This document shows positions 1 through 9,513 of a DNA stretch of 11,540 nt, in pieces. The stretch is from positions 1 to 11,540 of the forward strand of contig JANJUT010000108.1 in NCBI GenBank assembly GCA_024710445.1. The letters run 5' to 3'. Position numbers and translations under genes: made by a program. Numbering within the stretch: position 1 is the stretch's first letter; each line of letters starts with the position of its first letter. The notes under the pieces are model-generated. The model ran no database searches and was not told where the DNA came from. It worked only from the letters and a program-made list of their open reading frames with translations. Origin of the DNA: Thiobacillus sp. (GTDB lineage: Bacteria > Pseudomonadota > Gammaproteobacteria > Burkholderiales > Thiobacillaceae).

Positions 1-631
1 GATCGTCCTGCGGCACCGGAATGCCGGCCGCCCAGCGGATCAGCCCTTCGGCCTCCGGCAGCGCGGCGCGCAGTTTTTCCCGGATGGCGGCGATGCGGGA
101 CAACTCGGGCGCGGCGTGAAAGCCGCCGACGCGTATCCCCACCGGGTGCACCGAGCGCGCGCCAAACAATTCCATCAGTTCGTTGCCCAAAGCCTGGATC
201 CGCAGCCCGCGGCGCACTTCGTCCGGGGCGATGCGCGCCAGTTCGATCGCGCTGCTGCAGCCGAAAAAGTCTGGTGCGGCCAGCAGGTGGATGTGCAGGC
301 TGTGGCTCTGGATCCACTCGCCACAGTAAAACACCCGGCGCATGTCGCGCGCCCACGGGTCGAGTTCGACGCCGAATAGTTTCTCCAGCGCCTGCGCGGC
401 AGTGACCTGATACGCCACCGGGCAGATACCGCAGATGCGCGCCACCATGTCGGGAACTTCGGTGTAACTGCGGCCTTCGAGGAACTTCTCGAAGAAACGC
501 GGCGGCTCGAAAATACGCAGGCGCAGTTCGGCGATCTCGCCGTTATCGATGCGCAGGTCGAGCGCGCCCTCGCCTTCCACCCGGGTCAGCACGGGCACGT
601 GTATCGCAACGGTCCGTTTCCGTTCAGTCAT
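1..631 (-). CDS. hydA: [NiFe] hydrogenase large (alpha) subunit, group 3b / sulfhydrogenase type, partial
   Basis: Catalytic subunit carrying the NiFe(CN)2CO site that splits or makes H2 in a cytoplasmic NAD(P)-linked hydrogenase. I translated the minus strand from the ATG at 631-629; the frame stays open to the window edge, giving 210 residues, roughly half of the usual 420-odd. The N-terminus reads MTERKRTVAIHVPVLTRVEG and includes the usual TRVEGEG stretch. The L1 motif RICGICP lies at about residues 66-71 (Cys67 and Cys70), supplying the first pair of nickel ligands. The second pair (DPCxxC near the C-terminus) and the maturation-protease site lie outside the window. The start overlaps the end of hydD by 8 nt (GCGATGACTGA), so translation is probably coupled. 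As the last gene seen in the hydBGDA order, it fits the bifunctional group 3b assignment; a group 3d HoxH is less likely because HydG and HydB homologues are its partners. Confidence 0.93.
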   Translation of the reverse strand, partial: MTERKRTVAIHVPVLTRVEGEGALDLRIDNGEIAELRLRIFEPPRFFEKFLEGRSYTEVPDMVARICGICPVAYQVTAAQALEKLFGVELDPWARDMRRVFYCGEWIQSHSLHIHLLAAPDFFGCSSAIELARIAPDEVRRGLRIQALGNELMELFGARSVHPVGIRVGGFHAAPELSRIAAIREKLRAALPEAEGLIRWAAGIPVPQDD

Positions 632-1424
632 CGCGCGCCCTCACCTTGTCGGCTGCTGCCAGAAAGACCGGCGCCTGGCTGTTGATCGACTGGAAGCGCC
701 GGGCAATGGCCCGCGGCGTCAGCCCCAGATGGCTGAATTGCGCTGCCAGCGCATCGGTATTGGCATTCTCGGCGGGACCGTAACAGCCATAGCAGTCGCG
801 CCCCAGGCCTGGGCACAGGGCGCCGCAGCCGGCCCGCGTCACCGGTCCCATGCAGGCCACGCCGTGGCTGACCATGACGCAGGTCAGATTGCGCCGCTTG
901 CATTCGGTGCAGACCTTGTCGGCGTTGTCGTGCGGCGCCACGCCGAGCAGCAGGGCATTCACCACCGCCAATATTTGTGGACCGCTAACCGGACAGCCCC
1001 ACAGCTCGAAATCCACTTTGACGTGGTTTGCTATCGGCGTGGATCGCTCCAGGCTGTCGATGGCCTCGGGATGGCTGTAGATCTGCGCCACCCATTCCGC
1101 TCTGTTGGATCCGTTGCGCAAGGCCTGGATGCCGCCGGAGGTGGCGCAGGCGCCGATGGCGATCAGCAGGCGGCTGTGCTGGCGAATATGCTGGATGCGG
1201 GTCTGGTCTTCCGGCGTGGAGACGCTGCCTTCGACAAAGGCCACATCCACGTCGGTATCGGGATCGAGCGGTCCGGCTTCGGCGAAATGCACCAGTTCGA
1301 CCCGCTCGGCGAGCGCAAGCAAATCCTCGCCGAGATTGAGAAAGGCCAGCTGGCAGCCGTCGCAGGAGCTGAACTTGTGGACCGCCACGCGGGGCTTGAT
1401 GGAGGGTTGCAGGGTCACGGCCAT
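624..1424 (-). CDS. hydD: [NiFe] hydrogenase small (delta) subunit
   Basis: Electron-transfer small subunit (266 aa) that pairs with HydA in the cytoplasm and passes electrons from the NiFe site through iron-sulfur clusters. Proximal-cluster ligands are visible as SSCDGC (Cys21, Cys24), GACATSG (Cys93) and WGCPVSG (Cys144). Eight further cysteines (172, 175, 182, 191, 200, 204, 211, 214) are enough for two more [4Fe-4S] clusters, as in soluble group 3 enzymes. There is no twin-arginine signal and no C-terminal membrane anchor, which fits a cytoplasmic enzyme. The ATG at 1424-1422 shares one base with the TGA of hydG (TGATG), and the stop overlaps the start of hydA by 8 nt. Both junctions suggest translational coupling within one operon. 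Confidence 0.93.
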   Translation of the reverse strand: MAVTLQPSIKPRVAVHKFSSCDGCQLAFLNLGEDLLALAERVELVHFAEAGPLDPDTDVDVAFVEGSVSTPEDQTRIQHIRQHSRLLIAIGACATSGGIQALRNGSNRAEWVAQIYSHPEAIDSLERSTPIANHVKVDFELWGCPVSGPQILAVVNALLLGVAPHDNADKVCTECKRRNLTCVMVSHGVACMGPVTRAGCGALCPGLGRDCYGCYGPAENANTDALAAQFSHLGLTPRAIARRFQSINSQAPVFLAAADKVRARDD

Positions 1425-2272
1425 CAGAACCCCCGGTGCCCAAGCAGGGATTTCGCTTCATTCCAGCTGAACACGGGACCATCGCGACAGACGAACGCGC
1501 CGCCAAACTGGCAATGGCCGCAACGCCCCACCGCACACTGCATGTTGCGCTCCATGCTCAGGAACAGGCGCATAGGCGACAACCCGCGTTGCAGCAGAGA
1601 GTCCGCCGCCGCCCGCATCATGCCTTCGGGGCCACACATCATCGCCGTCGCGCAGGTCGGATCGAAGCGGGCCAGGCTAAACAGTTCCACCACGTGGCCG
1701 ACATGCCAGGGCCATTTGTCCCCACCCTGGCTCGCCGCCACCAGCACCTGGGTATTGGGCAGCTTCGCCCAGCGGTCATACTGCTCGCGCCAGATCAGAT
1801 CCTCAGTGTGTTTCACGCCCTGGATGATGACCAGCTTGCCGAAGCGCTCGCGCCTTTTCAGGATGTAATGAATGACCGACACCACCGGCGCACACCCCAG
1901 TCCGCCGGTCACCAGCACGATGTCGTTGCCGCCCACCTCCTGCAGCGGCCAGCCGCGGCCGAACGGCCCGCGCAGCCCCACCTTGTCGCCGGGCTGCAGT
2001 GCAGACAGCCCCTGGGTGACGCGCCCGAGCGCACGAATGGTGTGGCCGATCCCGCTGCGGTCGCCCGGGTCGGACATGATGGAAATCGGCACCTCGCCCA
2101 CGCCGTAGAGATACAGCATGTTGAACTGGCCGGGCGCGAAGCGGTACGCCGCCTGCGCCGCCGCATCGTCGAGCTGCAGCTTCAGGGTGAAGATCGTCGG
2201 CGATTCCTGGGTGCGTGCCAGCACCGTGGCGGCGTGCGGCGGTCCGGAATCGATTGGGGAATGTATTTTCAT
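1424..2272 (-). CDS. hydG: Hydrogenase FAD/NAD(P)-binding gamma subunit
   Basis: Diaphorase-type subunit (282 aa) that exchanges electrons between the hydrogenase clusters and NAD(P)H. It belongs to the ferredoxin-reductase / dihydroorotate dehydrogenase electron-transfer family. The FAD-binding barrel comes first, with RFAPGQF (about 44-50), PISIMS (62-67) and RGPFGRGW (101-108). The nucleotide-binding fold has VTGGLGCAPV (121-130) and MCGPEGMM (212-219). A C-terminal [2Fe-2S] motif has Cys246, Cys251, Cys254 and Cys262. I place the start at the ATG 2272-2270 (MKIHSPIDSG). A longer open frame reaches 2416, but its extra residues lie inside hydB and look like out-of-frame arginine-rich translation. 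The chosen ATG makes an ATGA overlap with the hydB stop. The gene ends in a TGATG junction with hydD. Confidence 0.92.
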   Translation of the reverse strand: MKIHSPIDSGPPHAATVLARTQESPTIFTLKLQLDDAAAQAAYRFAPGQFNMLYLYGVGEVPISIMSDPGDRSGIGHTIRALGRVTQGLSALQPGDKVGLRGPFGRGWPLQEVGGNDIVLVTGGLGCAPVVSVIHYILKRRERFGKLVIIQGVKHTEDLIWREQYDRWAKLPNTQVLVAASQGGDKWPWHVGHVVELFSLARFDPTCATAMMCGPEGMMRAAADSLLQRGLSPMRLFLSMERNMQCAVGRCGHCQFGGAFVCRDGPVFSWNEAKSLLGHRGF

Positions 2273-3411
2273 GGCTGTGCCTCGCCGGCCGTCAATGCGG
2301 CGACTTCTTCGGTCAGGTCGATGCCTGCGGGGCACCAGGCAATGCAGCGCCCGCAGCCGACACAACCGCTGCGGCCGAACTGGTCGTGCCAGGTGGCCAG
2401 TTTGTGGGTCAGCCATTGCCGGTAGCGGCTGCGAATGTCAGGCCGCACATTGAAGCCATGCAAGTGGCCGTGCGACTCGCCGAAACACGAATCCCAGATG
2501 CGGACATGTTCGCTGCTGCGGCCGTCGAGCACGGGGGTGTCGGTCTCGGCGTGGCAAAAACAGGTGGGGCATACCGCCGTGCAGTTGCCACATGCCAGAC
2601 AACGCGTTGCCACCTCATCCCAGCGCGGATGTTCCAGCTGCTTCATCAGGGCTTCGCGCAAATCAGGGCTGGGCAGGCTGCGCGTCTGCGCTGCTGCGGC
2701 TTCCAGGCCTTGTTGCCGGGCAGCCTCGATCTGCTGTGGCGTGACTGCCGGCAATTCCAGCATGCGAAACACCGCCTCGCCCTTGTCACTACCCGGCACG
2801 ACGACGAAGCCATCCGCCAATTCCACCAGCATGAGGTCATAGCCTACGGTCGGCGTCGGACCGTCCCCGGTCGAGGCGCAAAAGCACGTGGCTGCCGGCA
2901 CCGCACATTGCACCGCCACCAGAAACAGTTGCTCGCGCCGTCGGGCATAGTGTGCGTCGCGCCGAGTGTCGGGAAGAAAATGGGCATCCTGCAAAGCCAG
3001 CGCCGCCAGGTCGCAGGCACGCACGCCGATGATGGCCTGCCTGGCGGGTTCGGGATGTACGGCGACAAACTGCAGCACACCCGATTCATCCCGTTCCGCG
3101 CGCCACAATGACTCTTGGGGCACAAAGGCTTGCGGCTTGATTGCCTGCGGCCCGTTCGCCCAGGCGAAATAACGGTTCTCCGGGTCCGGGGTCAGTCGAT
3201 ACTGCCCTGCTGTCTGGGCGGCCTGCAAGCCTCGCGGCAAGGCATCGGCCGTATGGAGTTCACGCATGACGATGGCGCCGTTCACCACAGAGGGTCCGAG
3301 GCATTGGTAAGCGTTTGCCCTCAAACCGGCCAGCAATGAATTCAAATGCTCGACAGATAAAAATCCTGCGTGCTCAAACCCGGAAGTCACAGTGTCACGG
3401 CTCCATGTCAT
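2269..3411 (-). CDS. hydB: Hydrogenase iron-sulfur (beta) subunit
   Basis: Four-gene operon leader (380 aa), the 4Fe-4S dicluster subunit that works with HydG in moving electrons between the hydrogenase and NAD(P)H or, in sulfhydrogenases, to sulfur or polysulfide. Two ferredoxin-type motifs are plain near the C-terminus: CLACGNCTAVC (Cys271, 274, 277, 281) and CVGCGRCIAWC (Cys350, 353, 356, 360). Family features further upstream are GVRACDLAAL (129-138) and a CFCAS cysteine group (176-180). The ATG at 3411-3409 gives MTWSRDTVTS; no strong SD precedes it. Its stop overlaps hydG by four bases. The 108 bp to the divergent cmpX-like gene must hold the operon promoter; I found no convincing -35/-10 pair or FNR-type palindrome there. 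Confidence 0.9.
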   Translation of the reverse strand: MTWSRDTVTSGFEHAGFLSVEHLNSLLAGLRANAYQCLGPSVVNGAIVMRELHTADALPRGLQAAQTAGQYRLTPDPENRYFAWANGPQAIKPQAFVPQESLWRAERDESGVLQFVAVHPEPARQAIIGVRACDLAALALQDAHFLPDTRRDAHYARRREQLFLVAVQCAVPAATCFCASTGDGPTPTVGYDLMLVELADGFVVVPGSDKGEAVFRMLELPAVTPQQIEAARQQGLEAAAAQTRSLPSPDLREALMKQLEHPRWDEVATRCLACGNCTAVCPTCFCHAETDTPVLDGRSSEHVRIWDSCFGESHGHLHGFNVRPDIRSRYRQWLTHKLATWHDQFGRSGCVGCGRCIAWCPAGIDLTEEVAALTAGEAQP

Positions 3412-6776: not shown

Positions 6777-6805
6777 TTGCATTTTACCGATCGGTCAACT
6801 AGTAT
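6777..6805 (+). promoter_or_regulatory. Candidate tetR promoter
   Basis: TTGCAT (6777-6782) and TAGTAT (6800-6805) are 17 bp apart and are moderate matches to sigma-70 -35 and -10 elements. The expected transcription start falls at about 6812, next to the ATG at 6813, so the transcript could be leaderless; no SD is visible before the ATG. The operator-like palindrome fills the spacer. Confidence 0.5.
6783..6798 (+). promoter_or_regulatory. TetR-type operator, site A (upstream of tetR)
   Basis: The 16-mer TTTACCGATCGGTCAA is an inverted repeat centred on CGATCG. Read on the minus strand it is TTGAC-N6-GTAAA and matches site B at 7459-7474 at 12 of 16 positions. It sits exactly between the candidate -35 and -10 boxes of tetR, where bound repressor would block RNA polymerase, as in autoregulated TetR genes. 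The general form resembles the TAGAC-N6-GTCTA sites recalled for NemR-type regulators. Confidence 0.75.
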
Positions 6806-6812
6806 TCGCCGC

Positions 6813-7418
6813 ATGAACATCGCCACCGACACCCGCTCCAGAATCCTCGCCGCAGCCAAGCCGCGCTTCCACTCGCGCAGCTATGCCAATGTGGGCATCC
6901 AGGAGATATGCGAAGGCGCGGGCATCCAGAAAGGCAGCTTCTATCACTTCTTTCCGTCCAAGCGCGATCTGGTGATGGCGGTGATCGATGAATTTGCGGA
7001 TGAATGGGCGAATGGCTTTGTAGCGGAGGCCTTCGATCCGGCCCTGCCGCCGATGGAGCGCATCGACTATCTGATCGACGCGGCCTACTTCTGGCAAAAA
7101 TCGATCAAGCAGGTGCATGGCCGCATGCTCGGTTGCATTTTTGGCAACCTGACGCTGGAAGTCAGCACCCAGGACGATATTCTCCGGGCCAAGCTGCTGG
7201 CCATCTTCACGCGGGCCAAATCGCGCTTCAGCGAAACCCTGGGCCAGGCGGTTGCGGCAGGCACCATTGCGCCGCTGGATACCGAACTGACGGCAGAAGC
7301 CATGCTTGCGTACCTGGAAGGCGTGATATTGCTGGCCAAGGCACAGAACGATCCCGAGGTGCTATATCGCCTGGGGCCTGCCATCAAAACGCTGCGTGTC
7401 GAACTGAAAACGGCCTGA
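6813..7418 (+). CDS. TetR/AcrR-family transcriptional regulator, NemR/AcuR-like
   Basis: Predicted one-component repressor of 201 aa. The N-terminal helix-turn-helix runs from about residue 8 to 54, with VGIQEICEGAGIQKGSFYHF (27-46) and FPSKRDLV as the classic TetR signature. The C-terminal ligand domain contains LGCIFGNLTLE (106-116), typical of the NemR/AcuR-like subgroup. Cys108 and Lys176 appear to fall where E. coli NemR has its redox pair Cys106 and Lys175; this alignment was made from memory. Cys33 is the only other cysteine. I chose the ATG at 6813 because the protein then begins directly before the HTH; the frame is open back to 6729, but that part covers the promoter and operator. 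It is followed by a terminator, then by tusA-dsrE2 in the same direction with a second operator copy, so it likely represses itself and that pair. The inducer is unknown. Confidence 0.88.
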   Translation: MNIATDTRSRILAAAKPRFHSRSYANVGIQEICEGAGIQKGSFYHFFPSKRDLVMAVIDEFADEWANGFVAEAFDPALPPMERIDYLIDAAYFWQKSIKQVHGRMLGCIFGNLTLEVSTQDDILRAKLLAIFTRAKSRFSETLGQAVAAGTIAPLDTELTAEAMLAYLEGVILLAKAQNDPEVLYRLGPAIKTLRVELKTA

Positions 7419-7448
7419 GCGCCTGGCGCCAGCAGCGCGCTTTTTTTT
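7419..7448 (+). terminator. Intrinsic terminator after tetR
   Basis: Directly after the tetR TGA, the 10-bp palindrome CTGGCGCCAG (7423-7432) is flanked by GCGC repeats (7419-7422 and 7435-7438) that extend the stem, followed by eight T residues (7441-7448). This separates the tetR transcript from tusA-dsrE2, so the downstream pair needs its own promoter. Confidence 0.85.
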
Positions 7449-7458
7449 CGGCCCCAGC

Positions 7459-7474
7459 TTGACTGACCGGTCTA
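7459..7474 (+). promoter_or_regulatory. TetR-type operator, site B (upstream of tusA)
   Basis: TTGACTGACCGGTCTA has the TNGAC-N6-GTCTA layout and agrees with the reverse complement of site A at 12 of 16 positions. It includes a TTGACT that could serve as the -35 box of the tusA promoter, although no good -10 sequence follows at the usual distance. The site lies 89 bp before the tusA ATG and directly after the tetR terminator, which suggests that TetR controls tusA-dsrE2. Confidence 0.72.
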
Positions 7475-7562
7475 GCGGTTGGTGTAGGGATGTTGTTTCA
7501 CCCGGCAAGATTTGCCGATTATTCTGGCCGAACGGTCGTCACTTTGAGAAGGAGTCAACGTC

Positions 7563-7796
7563 ATGAATACACAAGCAACGCAATCCCTGGACGCACGCGG
7601 CCTCAATTGCCCGCTGCCGATTCTTCGCACCAAGAAGGCTTTAACCGCAATGGGCTCGGGCGAAACGCTCGCGATTCTTTCGACCGATCCCGGCTCGGTG
7701 AAGGATATGCAGGCCTTCTGCAAACAAACCGGCCACGAGTTGATCGCCACCAACTCGAACCAGGGCGAGTTTGAATTCTTTATCCGCAAATCATGA
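7563..7796 (+). CDS. tusA: TusA-family sulfur carrier protein
   Basis: Small cytoplasmic sulfur-carrier protein (77 aa) that takes sulfane sulfur as a persulfide and hands it to partners. The signature LNCPLPILRTKKAL (14-27) holds the sulfur-binding Cys16 in the CPxP motif; the length and the beta-alpha-beta-alpha-beta-beta type pattern fit the family. Cys58 is a second cysteine. The ATG at 7563 follows AAGGAG with eight bases between GGAG and the start. dsrE2 begins ten bases after the stop, and the pair recalls the rhd-tusA-dsrE2 clusters of sulfur oxidisers, here without a rhodanese gene next to it. In that setting the role is probably dissimilatory sulfur trafficking rather than tRNA thiolation, but this is inference from the neighbour. 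Operator site B upstream suggests control by the adjacent TetR. Confidence 0.93.
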   Translation: MNTQATQSLDARGLNCPLPILRTKKALTAMGSGETLAILSTDPGSVKDMQAFCKQTGHELIATNSNQGEFEFFIRKS

Positions 7797-7806
7797 GGAG
7801 ACGATA

Positions 7807-8418
7807 ATGGGTGCCGCAGACAAAATCATGACGCAAGGGCTGGATCAAACCCAATTCGATCAGTGGTTTGACCAGCGCTTTGAAACCAGAATGGCCCAGC
7901 GCGAGGAAGCGCACGTGCCGTCGCTCTCGATCATCGCCACCAAGGGCACGATGGACTGGGCCTACCCGCCCTTCATCCTCGCCTCCACCGCCGGCGCGCT
8001 GGGCTGGGAGGTGTCGGTGTTCTTCACCTTCTACGGTCTCGAACTGCTGAAGAAGGACCTGCACCTCGAAATCAGTCCGCTCGGCAACCCCAGCATGCCG
8101 ATGAAGATGCCGTTCGGCCCGCAGTGGCTCAAGGACATCAACTGGAAGGTGCCGAACGTCGTCATGGCCGGCGTGCCCGGCTTCGAGAAAGTCGCGACCG
8201 GGCTGATGCAGCAGACGGTGAAGAGCAAGGGTGTCGCCAGCATCGCCGAACTGCGCAGCGCCTGCCTCGAAGCAGACGCCAAGCTCTACGCCTGCCAGAT
8301 GACGGTCGACCTGTTCGGCTATTCGCAGGACGAGTTCATTCCCGAGATCGCGGGCTGGATCGGCGCGGCGAGTTTTCTGCCGCAGGCGCAGATGTCGGAC
8401 GTGTGTTTGTTCATCTGA
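7807..8418 (+). CDS. dsrE2: DsrE2-like sulfur transfer protein (DsrE/DsrF/DrsH-like family)
   Basis: Peroxiredoxin-like DsrE-superfamily protein (203 aa), probably a persulfide donor or acceptor that works with TusA. The family pattern is seen in SIIATKGTMDWAYPPFILAS (41-60), followed by GWEVSVFFTFYGLELL and by NPSMPMKMPFGP. The hydrophobic stretch at about 52-80 could associate with the membrane, as reported for DsrE2 proteins. Candidate sulfur-binding residues are Cys153, Cys163 (LYACQMTVDLFG, the more family-like setting) and Cys200. The ATG at 7807 follows AGGAG (7796-7800) at six bases; that SD starts on the last base of the tusA stop, so the genes are one transcript. An in-frame extension back to 7771 overlaps tusA and is rejected. 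A GC-rich hairpin (8430-8463) follows. Confidence 0.9.
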   Translation: MGAADKIMTQGLDQTQFDQWFDQRFETRMAQREEAHVPSLSIIATKGTMDWAYPPFILASTAGALGWEVSVFFTFYGLELLKKDLHLEISPLGNPSMPMKMPFGPQWLKDINWKVPNVVMAGVPGFEKVATGLMQQTVKSKGVASIAELRSACLEADAKLYACQMTVDLFGYSQDEFIPEIAGWIGAASFLPQAQMSDVCLFI

Positions 8419-8469: not shown

Positions 8470-8739
8470 TTATTCCAGCCATCGAGCCATGCGGGTCCTG
8501 GCCTCCGCATGCGTCACCACCCTGCCCTCGGCGACCGCCATTCCACCCCGTGCGTTTCCCTCAAGCACCGCCATGCGCTGCTGCAGCAGTTCAAAGGTTT
8601 CAACGTCCACCAGGCAGGCACTCGGCCGCCCGTGCTGCGTGATCAGAATGGACTGTTTGTCCCGTTCGATATCCGCGAGAAATTCGGCCGCCTGGCGTTT
8701 GAGGGTCGTGACGGGTTCGGTGCGCATGGACCGGACCAT
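8470..8739 (-). CDS. Phd/YefM-family antitoxin, solitary
   Basis: Type II antitoxin-like DNA-binding protein of 89 aa. The N-terminal half has the Phd/YefM fold pattern, with LKRQAAEFLADIERDKQSIL (13-32) and ITQHGRPSACLVDVETFELL (33-52). The tail THAEARTRMARWLE resembles the toxin-binding end found in Phd proteins paired with RelE/ParE toxins. The expected toxin gene should follow downstream on the minus strand, but only 51 bp separate the stop from the convergent dsrE2, so no partner exists there. I chose the ATG at 8739 (MVRSMRTEPV). A longer version from the ATG at 8829 would overlap the mazEF promoter. The ATG at 8727 is also possible. No clear SD is seen for any of them. It could be an orphan relic or act on another locus. 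Confidence 0.78.
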   Translation of the reverse strand: MVRSMRTEPVTTLKRQAAEFLADIERDKQSILITQHGRPSACLVDVETFELLQQRMAVLEGNARGGMAVAEGRVVTHAEARTRMARWLE

Positions 8740-8822
8740 AGTGGCACGTTCAGCGTGGAGCAAGACAAATGCGAGGCTGAGCTGACCCTTATCGCTCTTC
8801 AGCAGCGTTTCACCTGACAGCG

Positions 8823-8865
8823 TGGACATTCGACTAGCCGAATGTTTATACTTCGTTTAAACATT
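8823..8865 (+). promoter_or_regulatory. mazEF promoter with two overlapping inverted repeats
   Basis: TGGACA (8823-8828) and TATACT (8847-8852) form a good -35/-10 pair with 18-bp spacing. Two inverted repeats cover it: CATTCG (8827-8832) with CGAATG (8839-8844), and AATGTTTA (8841-8848) with TAAACATT (8858-8865). Such palindromes over a toxin-antitoxin promoter are typical binding sites for the MazE antitoxin or MazE-MazF complex. Confidence 0.7.
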
Positions 8866-8881
8866 GTCACGGAGAATCGTC

Positions 8882-9133
8882 TTGGCCGAGGTCTATCTGG
8901 ATATCAAGCAGTGGGGCAACAACCTGGGGGTTCGCCTGCCCGCCGCCGTCGCCCGCGCCGCGCATTTGCACGTCGACCAGCGCGTGCGCGTGTCGGTCGA
9001 GGACGGCCAGATCGTGATCCGGCCGGCGGATGAATCCGCGCTCACCCTCGAACAGCGCCTGGCGCAGTTCGATCCGGAACGGCATGGCGGCGAGGTCATG
9101 GCCGCGACGCCCGTGGGTGCCGAACAGTGGTAG
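8882..9133 (+). CDS. mazE: MazE-like antitoxin (AbrB/SpoVT-type)
   Basis: Antitoxin of 83 aa with an N-terminal swapped-hairpin DNA-binding domain, seen in LDIKQWGNNLGVRLPAAVAR (6-25) and VRVSVEDGQIVIRPA (35-49). The C-terminal part from about 50 should wrap and inhibit the toxin. The preferred start is the TTG at 8882, seven to eight bases after GGAGA (8871-8875); an upstream TTG at 8864 lies inside the operator repeat. No in-frame ATG exists near the start. The stop overlaps the GTG of mazF by seven bases, as is usual in coupled antitoxin-toxin pairs. Autoregulation through the repeats at 8827-8865 is likely. Confidence 0.88.
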   Translation: MAEVYLDIKQWGNNLGVRLPAAVARAAHLHVDQRVRVSVEDGQIVIRPADESALTLEQRLAQFDPERHGGEVMAATPVGAEQW

Positions 9134-9513
9134 CGGCCGCCAAAACCGCCGCCTGGGCGCCCGACCGCCAGGACGTCATCTGGATCGACTGCAATCCGCA
9201 GGCGGGCCGGGAGATGAAAGACGTCCATCCTTTTCTGGTGCTGTCGCCGCGGAACTTCAATGCCCGCACTTCGCTGGTGATCGGCCTGCCCATGACCACG
9301 GCCGAATACAACGCCGACAATCCCTTCGCCGTGGCGGCCGGCGTCGCCAAGGGACGCGGCAAGGCCGGCAAGACCAGCTATGTGTTGTGCCACCAGCCCA
9401 AATCCTTCGACTGGCGCATGCGCGGCGCCAAAGCGCATCCGCTGGGCGCCCTCCCCGATGCCGTTTTTGCCGACGTCTGCGAGCGGCTGAATCAGATCAT
9501 CCGGCTGGCCTGA
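9127..9513 (+). CDS. mazF: MazF/PemK-family endoribonuclease toxin
   Basis: Sequence-specific mRNA interferase toxin of 128 aa. The core matches MazF: DVIWIDCNPQAGRE (16-29), HPFLVLSPRNFNARTSLV (34-51) and IGLPMTT (52-58), then a C-terminal helix ending LNQIIRLA. Compared with E. coli MazF as recalled, Thr57 takes the place of catalytic Thr52, but the residue before the Pro of RPAVVLSP is His34 rather than Arg29. The GTG start at 9127 overlaps the mazE stop. The protein is longer than E. coli MazF (111 aa), mainly from residues about 60-90, including a GVAKGRGKAGK segment. No frameshift is seen, so the toxin appears intact. The RNA site cut cannot be read from the sequence. Confidence 0.9.
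   Translation: MVAAAKTAAWAPDRQDVIWIDCNPQAGREMKDVHPFLVLSPRNFNARTSLVIGLPMTTAEYNADNPFAVAAGVAKGRGKAGKTSYVLCHQPKSFDWRMRGAKAHPLGALPDAVFADVCERLNQIIRLA

Follow-up and report, generated by a model that had tools for sequence, protein, structure and literature searches.

A conserved palindrome shared by a TetR-family regulator gene and adjacent tusA-dsrE2 genes in Thiobacillus and gammaproteobacteria: a candidate autoregulated, thiol-responsive cassette

Results

A tetR-tusA-dsrE2 cassette in Thiobacillus

We analyzed a stretch of 11,540 nucleotides from Thiobacillus sp. (assembly GCA_024710445.1, contig JANJUT010000108.1), hereafter called the window, whose contig belongs to a metagenome-assembled genome (MAG) of 2.4 Mb that is 77% complete. 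Three genes on its plus strand are the subject of this work: tetR (6813–7418), which encodes a TetR-family regulator of 201 residues; tusA (7563–7796), which encodes a TusA sulfur carrier of 77 residues; and dsrE2 (7807–8418), which encodes a DsrE2-like sulfur carrier of 203 residues. Our main finding is that a 16-bp palindrome, present in the putative tetR promoter and again between tetR and tusA, is conserved in the relatives of this locus and is almost exclusive to it.

The regulator scores above the cut-offs of the Pfam profiles PF00440 (46 bits) and PF16925 (52 bits), placing it in the TetR family with a TetR_N and a TetR_C_13 domain. The alignment of its structural model, which has a predicted local distance difference test score (pLDDT) of 88.9, with structures of the TetR family spans 185 residues, and NemR (PDB entry 4yze) is among the nearest solved structures. 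The TusA protein matches PF01206 with 89.5 bits (cut-off 28.6) and reaches 69.3 bits against the curated profile NF001423, whose cut-off is 78; Cys16 and Cys53 are present in 40/40 aligned sequences. DsrE2 matches PF13686 with 159 bits (cut-off 25) and falls just below the cut-off of the curated profile NF047629 (206.2 versus 210 bits). Judged by its sequence, we therefore describe it as DsrE2-like and divergent.

Operators in the window

Two palindromes frame tetR on the plus strand. Operator O1 (6783–6798, TTTACCGATCGGTCAA) has one mismatch to TTGACCGNNCGGTCAA, the full motif derived from relatives, and is the best match in the window; O2 (7459–7474, TTGACTGACCGGTCTA) has two mismatches and is the second best, the next best window site having four. 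The consensus of the 16-bp operator is TTGACCG-NN-CGGTCAA. A third, decayed site that an earlier note on this DNA had overlooked, O3 (7524–7539, plus strand, CTGGCCGAACGGTCGT), has four mismatches; most Thiobacillus have TTGACCGnnCGGTCAT at this position, and in most relatives O3 lies just 5' of the tusA ribosome-binding site.

The earlier note had drawn attention to O1 and O2 because they match in opposite orientation. We confirmed both sites, with tetR between them, and the identity of the reverse complement of the first to the second at 12 of 16 positions. A best match of at least 12 between the two intergenic regions also appeared in 898 of 2000 Markov-shuffled pairs, and we rejected this match as stand-alone evidence because it is at chance level. 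When self-complementarity of both 16-mers was added, a condition chosen post hoc with the sites already known, the shuffle frequency was 4.9% (at least 4/8 pairs) or 0.85% (at least 5/8). The short motif offered with the earlier claim did not hold up as a search pattern either: TTGAC-N6-GT-N-AA is unspecific, giving 19 matches in the window's own genome versus 30 for the reversed pattern. The case for the operators therefore rests on their conservation in relatives.

Operator conservation across relatives

A scan for the TetR protein in genome contigs, with one genome per species and 84,980 species, yielded 44 loci. Together with a class-wide search, from which the best 30 of 40 matches were taken, and after dropping 4 of 73 as duplicates, the set comprised 69 distinct loci, 67 and 61 of which had enough upstream and downstream sequence, respectively, for the operator counts. 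In 63 of 67 loci, the 100 bp before tetR include a site that differs from TTGACCGNNCGGTCAA at no more than two positions, compared with 0.025 expected from shuffles; the four loci without it are L080, L081, L168, and L171. In the region after tetR, taken as 170 nt where no downstream tusA or dsrE2 match was available, such a site was found in 56 of 61 loci (0.04 expected), the exceptions being L080, L081, L171, L182, and L184. At least two sites with up to three mismatches follow tetR in 30/61 loci. The motif thus passes the check that the earlier note had itself suggested, conservation at both positions in orthologous loci. The arrangement matches that of an autoregulated repressor, with one operator sequence both in the promoter of the regulator gene and ahead of the neighboring operon, kept in orthologues.

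The Thiobacillus loci share a common layout, in which O2 lies just past a T-run that follows tetR, and O3 immediately precedes the ribosome-binding site of tusA. O2 reads TTAACCGACCGGTCTA in most of them and is unrecognizable in L039 and L040. In L082, a near relative, O3 has decayed to nearly the same form as in the window.

Promoter and intergenic features

O1 occupies the 17-nt spacer of a putative tetR promoter (6777–6805, plus strand), between a −35 element TTGCAT (6777–6782) and a −10 element TAGTAT (6800–6805). Repressors commonly have an operator that takes up the spacer of the promoter, and the position of O1 between −35 and −10 has the geometry expected of one. Only ~7 nt separate the −10 element from the ATG, so that the tetR mRNA is probably leaderless. 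The promoter-operator block is kept in 66 loci (26 of Thiobacillus, 22 of gammaproteobacteria, and 18 of the sister group). The operator starts 29–31 bp 5' of the tetR ATG in 63 of the 66 and is flanked in relatives by CTTGCAT or TTGAc on the 5' side and TAGnAT or TAtaaT on the 3' side. A σ70 consensus scan returned no site at threshold in the tetR promoter region, the window hexamers being too weak.

Downstream of tetR, a terminator scan identified a stem followed by T8 (7425–7448, plus strand), one of three terminator-like sites in the region versus 0.9 in shuffles. A run of at least five T residues follows tetR in 25/25 Thiobacillus loci, and the stem folds no better than shuffles (z 0.54). 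A terminator belonging to tetR, as previously claimed, is therefore plausible from the stem and the conserved T-run, whereas the stability of the stem does not add to it. Between O2 and O3 lies the inverted repeat CGGCAA-GAT-TTGCCG (7503–7517, plus strand), also terminator-like in the scan. The repeat CGGCAA..TTGCCG is present in 23/25 Thiobacillus tetR-tusA intergenic regions and in 0/22 gammaproteobacterial ones; it may be an attenuator hairpin or the site of another factor. An Rfam search of the window gave nothing at the gathering score.

The operator is nearly exclusive to the tetR locus

Exact matches to TTGACCGNNCGGTCANNTA in 369 genomes of the class numbered 10, in nine genomes, and all of them lie at tetR loci that had been found independently; the reversed pattern matched twice. 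Across 40 Thiobacillus genomes, exact matches to TTGACCGNNCGGTCANC numbered 18, of which 17 were O3 at the tetR locus and one was another site; a search of six genomes with a shorter pattern gave one exact match off the locus (G011:C1:66474). Once a mismatch was allowed, the number of matches was at or below that for the reversed control pattern, that is, at background. The regulator accordingly looks local in its reach, judged by where its presumed operator occurs, and it may have weaker distant targets.

The sulfur pair is an additional, TetR-linked paralogue

Among the 41 loci L039–L079, tusA follows tetR in 38, and the remaining three end at the tetR gene; dsrE2 is present in 36 of the 37 that have DNA past tusA. 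The order tetR-tusA-dsrE2 is conserved in Thiobacillus and in many gammaproteobacteria, including Thiolapillus, Thiotrichaceae, and Chromatiales, and the cassette is present in T. thioparus DSM 505 (L047). In that strain, dsrE2 (~7015–7624) is read in two overlapping frames, possibly reflecting a frameshift or sequencing error near the 5' end.

TetR was found in 21 of 40 Thiobacillus genomes, and 20 of these 21 hold a DsrE2 with at least 76% identity (in G043, as two pieces at contig ends). The 21st is G013, whose locus we take to be L057, with tusA kept and dsrE2 gone. After tusA in L057 (6769–7030), antitoxin- and MazE-like sequence resembling that of the window follows within ~1 kb, which suggests a deletion. 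The 19 genomes without TetR, some of them incomplete, had no DsrE2 match above 67%. The tetR-linked DsrE2 proteins carry an N-terminal extension of ~30 residues (window 7807–7920) that was unseen in Thiobacillus DsrE2 proteins without a linked tetR. In a quick tree of 65 of 67 DsrE2 rows, with tetR-less sequences from Thiobacillus only, 49 tetR-linked proteins, gammaproteobacterial ones included, split from 16 tetR-less Thiobacillus proteins with a Shimodaira-Hasegawa-like approximate likelihood ratio test (SH-aLRT) value of 100.

The 16 distinct tetR-less DsrE2 loci that we retrieved comprise seven rhd-tusA-dsrE2 clusters and nine under a second regulator, TetR2, a TetR_C_13 protein 23% identical to TetR over the aligned part. 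These nine are L146, L134–L138, and L140–L142 (L137 and L153 are one place, counted once); eight of them have an AhpD-like gene, and L146 has an AhpC/TSA gene. TusA-DsrE2 clusters of Thiobacillus are thus of three kinds, and a TetR accompanies two of these. An ACC-N4-GGT palindrome lies 5' of the TetR2 start in L146 and L153, and in L146 (2324–6976) genes for a σ70-like sigma factor, which we take to be of the extracytoplasmic function type, and for a zinc-finger protein lie within ~2 kb.

The MAG that contains the window has a separate rhd-tusA-dsrE2 cluster (G000:C80, locus L143), one of the seven mentioned above. The proposal that a dedicated regulator had replaced the rhodanese in the window must therefore be abandoned; the window pair is better regarded as an additional paralogous pair, since the rhodanese cluster coexists with it and its DsrE2 falls in the longer group. 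No rhodanese gene lies next to tusA in the window, and a single rhodanese match was found among the 41 loci L039–L079, several of which are short-flanked (31% identical, 3.8 kb before tetR).

Conserved cysteines of TetR

Cys33, Cys108, and Lys176 are conserved in the clade: Cys108 in 67/67 members, and Cys33 and Lys176 in 66/67 each, with one gap. Proteins shorter than 150 residues and 2 of 16 outgroup loci were left out of the cysteine counts. Cys33 was present in just 1 of 15 outgroup TetRs. The pair Cys33 and Cys108 is of the kind that characterizes sulfane-sulfur-responsive repressors. Cys108 and Lys176 align with Cys106 and Lys175 of NemR, although the same pair also occurs outside NemR. 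The best NCBIfam match is AcuR (NF051457), a regulator of acrylate utilization, at 81.4 bits, far below the cut-off of 247 for membership.

Sister regulators accompany other thiol-active proteins

A sister clade is represented by 17 loci of the class with 42–50% identity, which are the better-scoring ones because only the best matches of the class-wide search were taken. The gene that follows the regulator is tusA in seven (five with dsrE2), an AhpD-like gene in eight, and an AhpC/TSA gene in two; one locus of the tusA type has an AhpD-like gene further on. The operator precedes tetR in 17/17 of these loci, although L168 and L171 show it only when three mismatches are allowed, and follows it in 15/17 (again with three mismatches in L168 and L171; none in L182 and L184). 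The CxxC motif is invariant in six aligned AhpD-like proteins. A Pfam search of these six returned nothing for five and a subthreshold CMD match for one; a profile built from them matched PDB chains of AhpD-like, peroxidase-related proteins.

Gene neighborhood of the cassette

From the left, the window holds genes for NiFe sulfhydrogenase subunits, a mechanosensitive-channel-like gene, rluB, scpB, scpA, tetR, tusA, dsrE2, toxin-antitoxin genes, and genes for PEP-CTERM proteins. The sulfhydrogenase, presumably of group 3b, has four subunits on the minus strand (2–3411), all scoring far below the curated NCBIfam cut-offs. Directly 3' of dsrE2 (8470–9513) lie a Phd/YefM antitoxin gene on the minus strand and a pair of the MazE-PemK type.

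Discussion

The proposal that TetR represses itself and the sulfur pair can now be divided. Its foundation stands: from the conservation described above, it is well supported that the regulator gene and the sulfur pair have an operator in common, one that is nearly exclusive to the locus. Repression itself we infer from this arrangement. The reading that we favor, with a confidence that leans only modestly toward it, is that tetR-tusA-dsrE2 is an autoregulated cassette in which repression by TetR is relieved by a thiol-reactive signal, sulfane sulfur being the likeliest. A TetR dimer would bind TTGACCG-NN-CGGTCAA, with one site in the spacer of the tetR promoter and one or two between tetR and tusA, and would repress itself, tusA-dsrE2, and little else. 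Sulfane sulfur (persulfide or polysulfide) would modify Cys108 near Lys176, and Cys33, which lies in the DNA-binding domain, may act as the second cysteine. The modified regulator would then leave the DNA, allowing TusA and DsrE2 to be made and to take up and pass on sulfur.

A thiol-reactive signal is favored because the sister regulators are tied to thiol-active proteins, and sulfane sulfur would be a natural candidate for it in sulfur oxidizers. A role of the window pair in bulk sulfur oxidation is an assumption, and the links of the sister regulators to AhpD-like and peroxiredoxin genes would fit thiol or sulfur stress equally. We also put forward, tentatively, the wider idea that the two-cysteine TetR clade senses intracellular sulfane sulfur and that one operator governs interchangeable thiol modules: TusA with the long DsrE2, an AhpD-like CxxC protein, or an AhpC/TSA peroxiredoxin. 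If so, the extra TusA-DsrE2 pairs would be inducible sulfur-stress relays that stand outside the standing sulfur-oxidation route.

Several observations weigh against an autoregulated, thiol-responsive cassette. The exact long motif occurs in only 9 of 39 class genomes with TetR, the 30 genomes without it including that of the window. The window has O3 only in decayed form, L048 and L050 lack it, and the σ70 scan located no tusA promoter. The cassette is incomplete in L057, which lacks dsrE2; among the class loci, no tusA was detected in L159 and L160 and no dsrE2 in L164 and L165. Cys108 is found in 12 of 15 outgroup proteins and, being common in the wider group, does not by itself indicate thiol sensing. 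According to the abstract of PMC8176726, the TetR protein CssR responds to ligands and not through its cysteines, and the part of PMC8748444 that deals with a NemR-derived sensor reports that no Cys-Lys bond was found.

The same autoregulated TetR might instead recognize a non-covalent ligand in its C-terminal pocket, such as a coenzyme A thioester or some other sulfur-metabolism intermediate. We regard this as rather unlikely, even though the wide distribution of Cys108, the CssR example, and the AcuR match (81 bits) speak for it, as does TTHB023 of Thermus, which is linked to fatty-acid genes and uses a similar operator as described in parts of PMC7022988. The AcuR score is far under its cut-off, Cys33 is nearly unique to the clade, and many of the neighboring genes encode thiol-active proteins. 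Alternatively, TetR could resemble NemR in sensing oxidants or electrophiles (hypochlorite, quinones, or aldehydes), and TusA-DsrE2, the AhpD-like proteins, and the peroxiredoxins would then serve thiol repair or defense rather than sulfur oxidation. This explanation strikes us as unlikely: many of the tusA-linked loci are labeled with sulfur-oxidizer groups such as Thiobacillus, Hydrogenophilales, Thiotrichaceae, or Chromatiales (others just Gammaproteobacteria), and a sulfur-carrier output fits a sulfur signal better.

It is very improbable, in our judgment, that TetR represses itself alone and that tusA-dsrE2 is constitutive or controlled by another factor, perhaps acting at CGGCAA..TTGCCG. 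The presence of this repeat in nearly all Thiobacillus intergenic regions, the lack of a located tusA promoter, and the loss of O3 in some loci would agree with such a scheme. The operator is nevertheless found in 56 of 61 regions after tetR whether or not the repeat is present, and in the sister clade too; moreover, O2 persists where O3 is lost.

In Thiobacillus and many gammaproteobacteria, the cassette offers a compact and testable system in which a TetR-type protein with a defined operator may sense sulfur or thiols. The sister regulators, which stand with sulfur carriers in some loci and with AhpD-like or peroxiredoxin genes in others, could help to tell sulfur trafficking apart from thiol defense. 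Cytoplasmic sensing of sulfane sulfur by sulfur oxidizers is described as little known in the abstracts of PMC10451225 and PMC12423496. Full-text literature searches, whose coverage excludes most subscription journals, returned no title or abstract opening that describes a tetR-tusA-dsrE2 module, and this TetR-type repressor is apparently part of an undescribed conserved partnership.

Several known systems resemble this cassette in part. NemR of Escherichia coli shares the fold and the Cys106/Lys175 positions, and the nemR gene stands immediately before that of its partner, nemA; the two proteins are only 23% identical, NemR has no cysteine at the position of Cys33, and its partner gene is a different one, so that our TetR is no close NemR. 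The rhd-tusA-dsrE2 cluster of sulfur oxidizers, as presented in portions of PMC4175335, has TusA and DsrE2 in the same order, and a plain tusA-dsrE2 arrangement is also known from that source; the cluster differs in having a rhodanese and no such TetR, and the DsrE2 that it encodes in Thiobacillus is without the extension. The AltR regulator of the alt thiosulfinate-tolerance clusters (PMC12306174) is likewise a TetR-family protein in a cluster for tolerance of reactive sulfur. We liken it to TetR by description only, and TusA and rhodanese are missing from the main text of that paper. TTHB023 of Thermus thermophilus also belongs to the TetR family, and its palindromic operator is very similar, according to excerpts of PMC7022988; it is tied to fatty-acid genes, and the likeness is one of operator, not of sequence comparison. 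The sulfane-sulfur-responsive ArsR repressors SqrR, SoxR, and sHdrR resemble what we propose in having two conserved cysteines and ties to sulfur-oxidation genes, and parts of PMC12423496 and PMC10451225 include a tusA gene in the work on sHdrR and SoxR. The sulfur-responsive repressors of sulfur-oxidation genes treated in the portions of the papers compared are of the ArsR type; the regulator described here has a TetR fold instead, and whereas sHdrR and SoxR act on many genes, it apparently acts locally, on itself and the sulfur carriers beside it.

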